Shown here: positions 26,468 through 29,126 of the stretch, piece by piece | Numbering within the stretch: the stretch's first letter is position 1 | How the letters are laid out: every line of letters begins with the position of its first letter | Assembly: GCF_014651595.1 (NCBI RefSeq) | Contig: NZ_BMXE01000001.1 | Location: 744,001-808,000, forward strand | Direction of reading: 5' to 3' | Origin: Pseudovibrio japonicus | GTDB lineage: Bacteria > Pseudomonadota > Alphaproteobacteria > Rhizobiales > Stappiaceae | DNA length: 64,000 nt | Translations under genes and position numbers: made by a program | The notes under the pieces: generated by a model | What the model was told of the DNA's origin: nothing | Databases searched by the model: none | Seen by the model: the letters and a program-made list of their open reading frames with translations, nothing else

Positions 26468-27787
26468 TTAGTCCGCAGGCGTTTCCGTTGCTTCCACTTT
26501 CAGGCCAAAGCCTTCAAGGCCAACATAGTGGCGCTCACGCGATGCGATTACCCGGATAGAAGTTGCCCCCAGATCCTTTAGAATCTGCGCCCCAAGACCG
26601 ACTTCGCGCCAATCTTCCGACCGGCCTTGCGCTGACTCGTGCTGCTCATGTTCAGCAGCCTCCAGATTATCGCGATGGCGGTTGGACTTGCTTGCAACAC
26701 CTACCGCACCTTCGCGCAGGTAAACAATAATACCTCGGCCTCGTTCCGCAAAGTCTTCCATGATTGCTTCGAGAGGTTTGGTCTGACCAAAGACATCATC
26801 GAGAACATTTCCCAGATGCAGTCTGACAGGAATGTCCTGACCATCACGGATGTCTCCAAAGACCAGTGCCAGGTGGCTAACTTCGTCGAATGGAGTTGAG
26901 TACGCGATGGCCCGCGCCTTGCCTGCGGTTGTCTCCACGTCGAACTCGTCTATGCGGCTGACAAGGTTCTCGTGACGTTGGCGCCATGCGATGAGATCGG
27001 CCACGGACACCATTTTCAGGTTGTGCTCGTTTGCAAAAGCTTCGACCTGTTCGCCGCGTTTTACGGTGCCGTCGTCGTTCACCAGCTCACTGATGACGCC
27101 AACTTCCGGCAGCCCGGAGAGCTTGCACAGGTCAACAGCAGCTTCAGTGTGACCGGAGCGCATGAGGACACCGCCCTCTTTTGCTACCAGCGGGAAGATG
27201 TGGCCGGGACGCACGAAGTCAGCTGCCCCTGCGTTGGGGTTAGCAAGCCCGTGTACTGTAGCACAGCGCTGCTCAGCAGAAATGCCGGTGGTCAGGCCCG
27301 GTGCGTAATCAACGGAGACGGTGAATGCCGTTGCCAGTGGAGCGTCGTTGTTGGCGACCATTGGCTCAAGGTGAAGGCGCTTTGCTTCCTTGAGCGTCAT
27401 TGGAGCACAGACAATGCCGGAGGTGTGGCGGATGATGAATGCCATTTGCTCCGGGGTAATCATGCTGGCTGCAACAATAAGATCACCTTCGTTTTCGCGA
27501 TCATCATCGTCGGTTACAACAACCATCTCGCCGTTTTCGAAGGCACGCAGGGCTTCGGCAACTCTTGTTTGAGACACGACGTACTCCTTGTTTTCTTTTA
27601 AACCGAGAAAATCGTTAGGTGTCACCTTATGGTCCGTTGCTTCCGCGATTTTCTGGGCCATATCCCGAGAGATCCATGCGCTTGGGTCATTGCACAGCGC
27701 GGTTACAGATGCAGGAGACAGACCTGCACGCCGTGCAAATGCACTTCTGCTTTCACCAGAGCCTTCTAACCATTCGGTCAAGCGCAT
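26468..27787 (-). CDS. ribB: HTH-RibB-RibX: 3,4-dihydroxy-2-butanone 4-phosphate synthase with N-terminal HTH and degenerate RibA domain
   Basis: 439 residues in three parts. Residues 1-62 are a Cro/XRE-like helix-turn-helix (FARRAGLSPASVTALCND, ending in TPNDFLG). Residues 71-285 are RibB, with DDDDRENEGDL and RPGHIFPLVAKEGGVLMRSGHTEAAVDL, which makes the four-carbon riboflavin precursor from ribulose 5-phosphate. The last 150 residues align with GTP cyclohydrolase II but lack the Zn-binding CX2GDX3SXRCDC cysteines and the QEGRGIGL motif, as in RibBX proteins. A second ribosome site AAGGAG six bases before a GTG at 27577-27575 would start RibBX alone. No FMN riboswitch is visible upstream; two palindromes are. 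Confidence 0.88.
   Translation of the reverse strand: MRLTEWLEGSGESRSAFARRAGLSPASVTALCNDPSAWISRDMAQKIAEATDHKVTPNDFLGLKENKEYVVSQTRVAEALRAFENGEMVVVTDDDDRENEGDLIVAASMITPEQMAFIIRHTSGIVCAPMTLKEAKRLHLEPMVANNDAPLATAFTVSVDYAPGLTTGISAEQRCATVHGLANPNAGAADFVRPGHIFPLVAKEGGVLMRSGHTEAAVDLCKLSGLPEVGVISELVNDDGTVKRGEQVEAFANEHNLKMVSVADLIAWRQRHENLVSRIDEFDVETTAGKARAIAYSTPFDEVSHLALVFGDIRDGQDIPVRLHLGNVLDDVFGQTKPLEAIMEDFAERGRGIIVYLREGAVGVASKSNRHRDNLEAAEHEQHESAQGRSEDWREVGLGAQILKDLGATSIRVIASRERHYVGLEGFGLKVEATETPAD
27575..27589 (-). promoter_or_regulatory. Internal ribosome binding site and GTG start for a short RibB form
   Basis: On the minus strand, AAGGAG (complement 27589-27584), six bases, then GTG (27577-27575). 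It is in frame with the long form and falls at the junction between the HTH and RibB domains. It is stronger than the site in front of the long form. Confidence 0.75.
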
Positions 27788-27813
27788 ACTTCTTATTCCT
27801 CGGAGTCACAATT

Positions 27814-27851
27814 TTCAGTGATACTGAAATCATACTTTTCTGATCGGAAAT
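27814..27851. promoter_or_regulatory. Two tandem palindromes upstream of ribB (candidate autoregulatory operator)
   Basis: TTTCAGT-GAT-ACTGAAA (27814-27830) is a perfect dyad. TTTCTGATCGGAAA (27838-27851) is a near-perfect dyad sharing the outer TTTC/GAAA half-site pattern. Their centres are about 22 bp apart, two helical turns, and the first begins 26 bp before the long-form start codon. Confidence 0.6.
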
Positions 27852-28034: not shown

Positions 28035-29126
28035 CTAGCGCTCCCCGGTCTGGCCTCTGTCACGCAGGACATGATCTGCCAGAACGCACGCCATCATAGC
28101 TTCGCCAACCGGTACCGCACGGATGCCGACGCATGGGTCGTGACGGCCCTTGGTCATCACATCCACCTCATCCCCACCGCGGGTGATGGATTTGCGCGGG
28201 GTCAGAATAGAAGAGGTTGGCTTTACAGCGAAGCGGACCACGAGCGGAGCCCCGGAAGAGATACCGCCCAACACGCCGCCGGCGTGGTTGGAGAGGAACT
28301 CGGGCTTGCCATCTTCTCCGATACGCATCTGATCAGCGTTGTCTTCTCCGCTCAATGAGGCTGCTTCAAAGCCGTTGCCGATCTCCACACCCTTGACTGC
28401 GTTGATAGACATCATGGCTGAAGCAAGGTCCTGATCCAGTTTGCCGTAGAGCGGTGCTCCCAGTCCAGCAGGAACGTGGTCGGCAACCACTTCGATTACC
28501 GCACCGATGGAAGAGCCTGCTTTGCGGATACCATCAAGGTACTCCTCATAGAACTTTGCTGCTTCAGCATCCGGGCAAAAGAACGGATTGTTGTGCACTT
28601 CGTTCCAATCCCAATTGTCGCGATTGATCTTGTGCGGTCCCATCTGCACCAATGCGGCACGGATCAGAATATTCGGGATGACTTTGCGTGCCAAACCACC
28701 GGCTGCAACGCGTGCAGCTGTTTCGCGTGCGGACGAACGACCGCCGCCGCGATAGTCACGAATGCCGTATTTTGCATCGTAGGAATAGTCTGCATGGCCT
28801 GGCCGGTAGCGCTCTTTGATCTCGGAGTAATCTTTGGAGCGCTGGTCGGTGTTTTCGATCATCAGCGAGACAGGCGTGCCGGTGGTGCGTTGCACGCCGT
28901 CTTCATCTGTCATCACACCAGAGAGGATTTTGACCTGATCCGGTTCGCGGCGCTGGGTCGTAAACTTGTTTTGCCCCGGCTTGCGCTGGTCCAGATACAC
29001 CTGAATCTCTTCTGCTGTAATTGGGAGAAGCGGCGGACAGCCATCGACGACGCAGCCAAGCGCCGGTCCATGGCTCTCGCCCCAAGTCGTTACGCGAAAC
29101 AGATGACCGAAGGTGTTGTGGGACAT
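28035..29126 (-). CDS. aroC: Chorismate synthase
   Basis: 363 residues, normal length. It catalyses the last shikimate-pathway step, EPSP to chorismate, using reduced FMN. Signatures: [32 protein letters not shown] at the start (GESHG motif), [20 protein letters not shown] in the middle, and [21 protein letters not shown] near the end. It is transcribed leftward and has its own terminator. Confidence 0.96.

Follow-up and report, generated by a model that had tools for sequence, protein, structure and literature searches.

In the 64,000-nucleotide stretch of Pseudovibrio japonicus DNA analysed here (the window), a single open frame on the reverse strand (27787-26468) encodes a 439-amino acid protein in which a helix-turn-helix (HTH) domain is joined to the riboflavin enzyme RibB and to a RibA-like domain, RibX. 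Comparison with related genomes leads us to propose, with a probability of about 0.8, that this protein combines the functions of an enzyme and a transcription factor: its HTH dimer would bind the palindrome TTTCAGTNNNACTGAAA and autoregulate ribBX, together with ribN in the Stappiaceae, most likely by repression, and an internal start would give rise to a short form. As matching sites precede its own gene and, in one of the families concerned, a probable importer gene, the fused enzyme very probably controls the supply of vitamin B2 to the cell.

Domain composition of the fusion protein

The gene for the long form (26468..27787, reverse strand) starts with ATG. Its first 62 codons (27602..27787) code for an N-terminal HTH of the lambda-repressor/Xre type, followed by a linker, by the RibB domain, a DHBP synthase (26984..27556), and by RibX, a GTP cyclohydrolase II-like domain whose zinc cysteines are gone (26492..26950), all on the reverse strand. 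The first-pass annotation had read the same three parts in this frame, and Pfam searches and alignment to PDB structures bear this out. The Pfam family DHBP_synthase (PF00926) matches residues 78-268 with 277 bits against a cut-off of 26.4, and RibB also passes the curated model TIGR00506 (233.6 bits, cut-off 177.45). The motifs RENEGD, RPGH and HTE, which we take to be the motif residues of DHBP synthase, are intact and are invariant among 31 aligned fusions, that of P. japonicus included. GTP_cyclohydro2 (PF00925) matches residues 280-432 with 114.5 bits. RibX fails the RibA model TIGR00505 (32.9 bits, cut-off 205.85), the zinc CDC loop is absent from it, appearing as a gap in the alignment to PDB entries 2bz0 and 4i14, and CxC was found in the C-terminal part of none of the 90 proteins examined. 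RibB and a zinc-less RibA-like domain are present within one chain and, RibX being below the RibA cut-off and without the CDC loop, the protein is a RibBX with an HTH in front.

The HTH_3 family matches residues 13-51 with 20.8 bits (E 4e-4), just missing the curated cut-off of 23 bits. The AlphaFold model of the HTH alone (66 residues) has five helices and a pLDDT of 80, and its best PDB matches include YdaS, SinR, HigA and the lambda repressor at TM scores of about 0.6-0.75, with weak Foldseek E-values (0.02 or worse); the model of the full-length protein is poor (pLDDT 63). Among 16 Pseudovibrio loci, differences in the HTH amount to 0.158, 0.093 and 0.51 at the three codon positions, a pattern which implies that the HTH is a genuine, translated domain under selection. 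Judged from its sequence and predicted fold, the protein combines an intact enzyme domain with a domain of DNA-binding type, as expected of a trigger enzyme.

A search of the whole genome found one DHBP_synthase and one GTP_cyclohydro2 domain in total, both in the fusion gene. Since this is the only PF00926 match in the genome, RibB is expected to be active. A canonical GTP cyclohydrolase II was not found in the genome, the sole PF00925 match being the zinc-less RibX. When PF00925 matches of at least 160 bits were taken as canonical GTP cyclohydrolase II, 13 of 50 other genomes of the order had one, the remainder being at the level of RibX or weaker. According to the accessible part of PMC9478397, S. 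meliloti has the formamidase BrbF and misses the GTP-opening enzyme, and in Rhizobium relatives the BrbF genes adjoin a marR gene. P. japonicus has two creatininase-family genes, one of which (C5:124820-125551, 238 bits, within locus L270, C5:122000-128500) lies about 2 kb from an ORF that looks MarR-like by eye; because of this neighbour, the gene may be BrbF.

Directly upstream of the fusion gene and on the same strand lies a gene named by eye as aroC (window 28035-29126), with the operator described below between both. The end of aroC also lies directly before ribB in several relatives whose genomes have no HTH fusion.

Distribution and history of the fusion

The architecture with an N-terminal HTH, expected from the first reading to recur in related genomes, proved to be conserved when these were searched, and a stop codon between the HTH and RibB was found in no relative examined. 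Within the Stappiaceae (presumably our family f1), the match began at residue 1 and ran without a stop in 37 of 37 genomes searched, including that of P. japonicus. In one order the fusion turned up in eight families, and in another order in a single one. In the search of 397 genomes of the order, 373 of which matched, fusions were also present, among the matches listed, in families f20, f23, f28, f35, f36, f42 and f50, and RibBX without HTH in f13, f14, f16, f18, f21, f24, f44, f45, f49 and others. A split HTH gene was considered for relatives such as G193, G136, G084, G212 and G218 and rejected: the apparent stops lie in sequence before ribB that was read out of frame and that looks by eye like aroC, not like an HTH.

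Among the 48 loci listed in the scan of named genomes, 47 are fusions and one, L236, is spurious and was excluded; standalone relatives of the HTH were not found among these 48. The named fusions, among the matches listed, belong to Pseudovibrio, Roseibium/Labrenzia, Pannonibacter, Stappia, Bosea, Siculibacillus, Agaricicola and others. A class-wide search with a profile of the HTH had matches in 24 of 289 genomes. Fusions account for five places, each scoring at least 87 bits, and the remaining matches reach at most 39 bits, those inspected among them (L265-L269) holding no fusion. Outside the order but within the same class, two genomes carry the fusion, both of family f94; in G583, the third genome of this family, the search matched no fusion. 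On a RibBX tree built from 76 of 90 rows, 14 near relatives having been left out beforehand, the main-type HTH requires four changes, and a single clade of HTH carriers was not rejected (AU p 0.09).

A palindrome that accompanies the HTH

The perfect dyad TTTCAGT-GAT-ACTGAAA reported in the first-pass annotation is present at 27813-27829, 25 bp before the ATG, and is referred to here as O1. When the upstream DNA of relatives was compared, as the annotation had suggested, this dyad was found to be conserved and to track the HTH. It matches TTTCAGTNNNACTGAAA in at least 11 of 14 positions upstream of 55 of the 57 main-type HTH fusions (four rows of f23 were counted separately from these), and the two misses bear variant palindromes, ATTTAGTTGTGCTAAAT at L108 and CTTTAGTGACATTTAAA at L128. 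At the same threshold it precedes 47 of 47 named fusions among the matches listed, a set that overlaps the 57. Upstream of unfused ribB genes, a dyad at this threshold was found in 0 of 29 cases, the best score being 10, which is within the range of shuffled sequence. After correction for kinship the association of HTH and dyad is not significant, gains and losses of the HTH being few: the independent pairs number two on well-supported branches and four on all branches.

A second, imperfect dyad from the same annotation, TTTCTGATCGGAAA (27838..27851), about 23 bp from O1 centre to centre, is present in the sequence but not conserved in other Pseudovibrio, and for this reason is treated as a chance occurrence, probably without function.

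An exact scan with the 14-base pattern was run on 80 genomes, 54 with and 26 without the HTH, and places were assigned by comparing their coordinates with the positions of ribBX and of FMN riboswitches. It gave 27 places in 27 genomes, 23 of them at ribBX and 4 a short distance upstream of an FMN riboswitch, itself in front of a gene for a RibN-like transporter. There was no place in the 26 genomes without the HTH, and the reversed pattern gave 0 in the 80 genomes. An exact match is absent from 27 of the 54 genomes with the HTH, where the sites inspected are imperfect. Outside the Stappiaceae the exact scan found the ribBX site only, so that the regulon there may often be the fusion gene itself.

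The 12-base core was scanned in 37 genomes and gave 36 places: 18 at ribBX, 13 at an FMN riboswitch/ribN and 5 elsewhere. Genomes with the HTH were matched in 20 of 23 cases and the others in 0 of 14, one of the latter (G045) having a ribB fragment only. With the core reversed as a control, 8 of these 37 genomes had matches, at 16 places in all, of which G002 and G015 held 5 each; for this core it is therefore location, rather than count, that constitutes evidence. Third dyads in Pseudovibrio (five places, in G001, G002, G003, G006 and G010), which have no riboswitch and are found within unrelated ORFs, at their edges or between them, were taken for chance.

Changed recognition helices and changed palindromes

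Fusions of family f23 have the recognition helix [QA]GR[VI]SQ, compared with the usual PA[SA][VI]TA, and bear another palindrome: TATTAGNNNNNCTAATA occurs in 9 of 12 f23 loci, in 7 of these as TATTAGCNNNGCTAATA, with its centre about 17 bp before the ATG. The remaining loci carry variants (L111 and L242) or another palindrome farther upstream (L129). An exact scan for TATTAGNNNNNCTAATA in 40 genomes matched those 9 f23 genomes, each at ribB and nowhere else, as well as 4 places elsewhere in three genomes outside f23, the reversed control giving 3; nothing was matched in seven f23 genomes whose HTH was not established. The two fusions of f94, with the helix PAAVTQL, bear TTTTAGTTTAACTTAAA and TTTAAGTTTGACTTAAA, which score 12 of 14 by the main pattern. 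L106, with the changed helix GTITQL, yet retains a site of the TTTCAG type, TTTCAGCCAAACTGAAT, and a strict link between helix residue 30 (A/Q) and operator position 4, which fails in this locus, was rejected.

This co-variation of helix and operator still provides the strongest case for a site read by the HTH itself. It also bears on whether the dyad could belong to another regulator, the HTH on RibB serving some other role. That loci with another HTH have another dyad in front of the same gene speaks against such an arrangement, as do the absence of the dyad at all examined genes whose RibB is without HTH and the restriction of the exact 14-base site, in 80 genomes, to ribBX and FMN-ribN; we regard it as very improbable.

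A second target at the FMN riboswitch

An FMN riboswitch had not been visible at the fusion gene on first reading, and Rfam searches agree, with no match in the window. One FMN riboswitch (RF00050) was found in the P. japonicus genome, on a different contig, and the only other exact match to the 12-base core in this genome lies 56 bp upstream of it. The riboswitch precedes a gene for a 299-amino acid transporter of the EamA family. FMN-controlled importers of such a type are RibN in alphaproteobacteria, as stated in the accessible part of PMC4418817, and we infer that the transporter is RibN; NCBIfam gives the protein no name, its sole match there reaching 24 bits against a cut-off of 230.

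All 41 FMN loci above the cut-off were inspected, 27 in genomes with the HTH and 14 in genomes without it, the gene types being called by short motifs and Pfam being run on the P. japonicus protein only. In genomes with the HTH, the dyad stands before 22 of 24 ribN-type genes and before 0 of 3 ribH-type genes; in genomes without it, before 0 of 14 FMN loci of all types (by motif 5 ribH, 2 ribN, 2 ribB and 5 unassigned, four of these EamA-transporter-like by eye). Within Pseudovibrio, both ribBX and FMN-ribN bear the dyad in 15 of 16 genomes, G011 being the exception. With the same operator also present upstream of the ribN riboswitch, the system would go beyond autoregulation.

Several individual loci may be recorded here. 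L136 (G027) and L139 (G011) are natural exceptions that could serve as controls, belonging to genomes with the HTH whose FMN-ribN locus is without the dyad. At L132, L137 and L145 (G021, G386 and G228, all with the HTH), the FMN riboswitch precedes a ribH-type gene, not ribN, and the operator is absent. In two genomes (G381 at L151 and G218 at L158) of a family without the HTH, an FMN riboswitch stands before a RibB-type gene apart from the ribBX locus, as if the riboswitch did there the job that the HTH does in carriers of the fusion.

The presence of the ribN site is relevant to what the HTH might sense. In a constitutive, homeostatic autorepressor, it would read only the concentration of the RibBX dimer and steady the level of the enzyme, and of ribN where this is a target, with no ligand involved; such a protein would not be a trigger enzyme in the strict sense. 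A site at the enzyme's own promoter is the common feature, which would agree with this, and so would the finding that ribBX has the only exact genome site outside the Stappiaceae. The ribN importer, however, is also under the operator in the Stappiaceae, and this fits a signal of flavin need better. We hold plain homeostasis without a ligand to be a serious contender with a little less than an even chance.

Promoter layout

A weaker second site, O2, resembling TTTCATTGNNACTGAAA and holding a -35-like TTG, lies 27-29 bp downstream of O1 in many Stappiaceae outside Pseudovibrio and in some members of f28, f50 and f36. In 21 of 57 loci a TANNNT motif has its end exactly 6 nt in front of the ATG of the HTH, compared with at most 2 loci for each of the other gaps between 2 and 20; the 21 comprise 14 of 21 other Stappiaceae, 4 of 7 f28 loci and 3 of 13 others. 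From this position, a leaderless mRNA is predicted for the long form in those loci. The leaderless geometry was found in 0 of 16 Pseudovibrio loci, and a consensus promoter scan of the window recognised none.

The centre of O1 is near -61 of the predicted start (the ATG) in most Stappiaceae outside Pseudovibrio, whereas in f20 and f94 the centre of the main site falls near -34 of the ATG, and in most f23 loci near -17. O1 at -61, measured from the predicted leaderless start, could leave room for activation, in which O1 would recruit RNA polymerase and the protein would turn its targets on. The sites near -34 (f20, f94 and O2, the last with its -35-like TTG) or near -17 (f23) instead suggest repression: if transcription starts at the ATG, as predicted, they would cover the -35 or the -10 region, which is typical of repressors. 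Activation is thus judged distinctly unlikely, and repression remains the preferred reading.

An internal ribosome-binding site between HTH and RibB

At the junction of HTH and RibB, the reverse strand carries the Shine-Dalgarno (SD) sequence AAGGAG (27589-27584), six bases and GTG (27577-27575), exactly as first described. Translation from this GTG would yield a predicted short form of 369 amino acids, RibBX without HTH (26468..27577, reverse strand). The first-pass annotation had placed a ribosome site here from one sequence, and it turns out to be conserved among fused genes: at the junction, an in-frame ATG or GTG is preceded by an SD of at least 5 nt in 43 of 61 and of at least 4 nt in 57 of 61. 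At other in-frame ATG or GTG codons of the same genes, the corresponding figures are 49 of 1209 (4%) and 108 of 1209 (9%); all these counts come from related sequences and are not independent. At the first ATG of the fused genes, an SD of 5 nt was found in 0 of 61 and one of 4 nt in 11 of 61 cases, and the starts of unfused ribB genes, which were roughly assigned, have one of 5 nt in 5 of 29 and of 4 nt in 10 of 29.

Lys-Glu is found at the place of the SD in 13 of 16 Pseudovibrio loci, and its codons are AAGGAG in 13 of 13; elsewhere in these genes AAA (124) is commoner than AAG (103), and GAA (395) than GAG (198). With SD and start codon kept at the junction in 57 of 61 genes, a second protein form without HTH is likely. 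The site might alternatively be a relic of an old RibB start, the long form only being made, given that the internal start is about where unfused RibB proteins begin and that four fused loci (L062, L104, L109 and L111) are without a 4-nt SD. Against a relic, 57 of 61 fused genes from many families retain an SD, unfused ribB genes themselves have a 5-nt SD in only 5 of 29 of their roughly assigned starts, and the invariable AAGGAG in Pseudovibrio runs against the codons common elsewhere in the same genes. We therefore consider a relic unlikely and retain the internal start as the probable source of a short form.

Proposed mechanism

In the mechanism that we propose, the RibB domain would supply 3,4-dihydroxy-2-butanone 4-phosphate for riboflavin, and RibB domains would also hold the dimer whose N-terminal lambda-repressor-like HTHs bind the palindrome in the gene's own promoter. 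In the Stappiaceae, the long form would in addition bind the promoter of the RibN-type riboflavin importer controlled by the FMN riboswitch. Both targets would most likely be repressed once flavin precursor supply or enzyme level suffices, and ribN would consequently be under two locks, a DNA operator and an RNA riboswitch. The second start inside the gene would provide RibBX enzyme without HTH. Heterodimers of long and short forms would have one HTH and bind the palindrome poorly, so that the ratio of starts would set the strength of the repressor.

More tentatively, and with the odds somewhat against so complete a picture, the system may be a DNA-level flavin homeostat of Alphaproteobacteria, in which the committed riboflavin enzyme would double as the transcription factor for flavin supply. 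Each gene would yield two proteins, a repressor-enzyme, translated from a leaderless mRNA in many relatives, and a plain enzyme, and their mixing in dimers would set repression. RibB or the dead RibX might bind the signal, be it ribulose 5-phosphate, DHBP or a flavin, and helix and operator would have switched specificity together more than once.

Relation to known systems

Bacterial riboflavin genes are mostly discussed as riboswitch-controlled. The FMN riboswitch (RF00050) precedes the same importer gene and likewise serves flavin homeostasis; it differs from the operator in being RNA-based and in lying downstream of it. Enzymes that regulate are known elsewhere: the bacterial trigger enzymes BirA, PutA and NadR bind DNA and control genes of their own pathway, and by analogy the fusion would also combine an enzyme with a putative DNA-binding controller of its own pathway. 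To our knowledge, none of the three is a RibB. RbkR is an archaeal riboflavin kinase with an HTH which regulates riboflavin genes. It resembles the fusion, by description only, in joining a riboflavin-pathway enzyme to a regulatory HTH, but it belongs to archaea and its enzyme is riboflavin kinase, not DHBP synthase; Pfam shows RibB, GTP_cyclohydro2 and a weak HTH in the fusion protein, and no riboflavin kinase domain.

RibBX proteins of Shewanella, Aeromonas and Bradyrhizobium, treated in the accessible part of PMC10012899 (citing Brutinel 2013 and Nouwen 2021), consist like the fusion of RibB and a zinc-less C-terminal RibA-like domain, and the X domain has been reported to modulate RibB activity in Shewanella (cited in PMC10012899). 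The fusion differs from them by the addition of the HTH and the operator; the accessible text of that paper does not contain 'helix-turn-helix'. The S. meliloti homologue matches from residue 73 only, without the HTH. In Wolbachia, the HTH proteins wBmxR1 and wBmxR2 bind in front of a gene encoding a bifunctional enzyme of the RibB/RibA type, at its promoter; in contrast to the fusion, they are separate proteins unfused to the enzyme, they raised expression of a ribA reporter and they also bind type IV secretion promoters (PMC3518464, accessible part). Recent reviews, in their accessible parts, name riboswitches and RibR for bacteria and do not contain 'helix-turn-helix'. No description of an HTH-RibB regulator was found in the full-text literature accessible outside most subscription journals. 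Enzyme-regulators are thus already known, and HTH-RibBX looks like a new family of them.

In the bacteria that carry the fusion, a biosynthetic enzyme itself appears to be a transcription factor with a defined operator and a small regulon uniting synthesis with import. Since recognition helices and operators come in natural pairs, their specificity code can be tested. A possible role also emerges for the degenerate RibX, which may serve as a ligand sensor in organisms where the first step of riboflavin synthesis may be unassigned.
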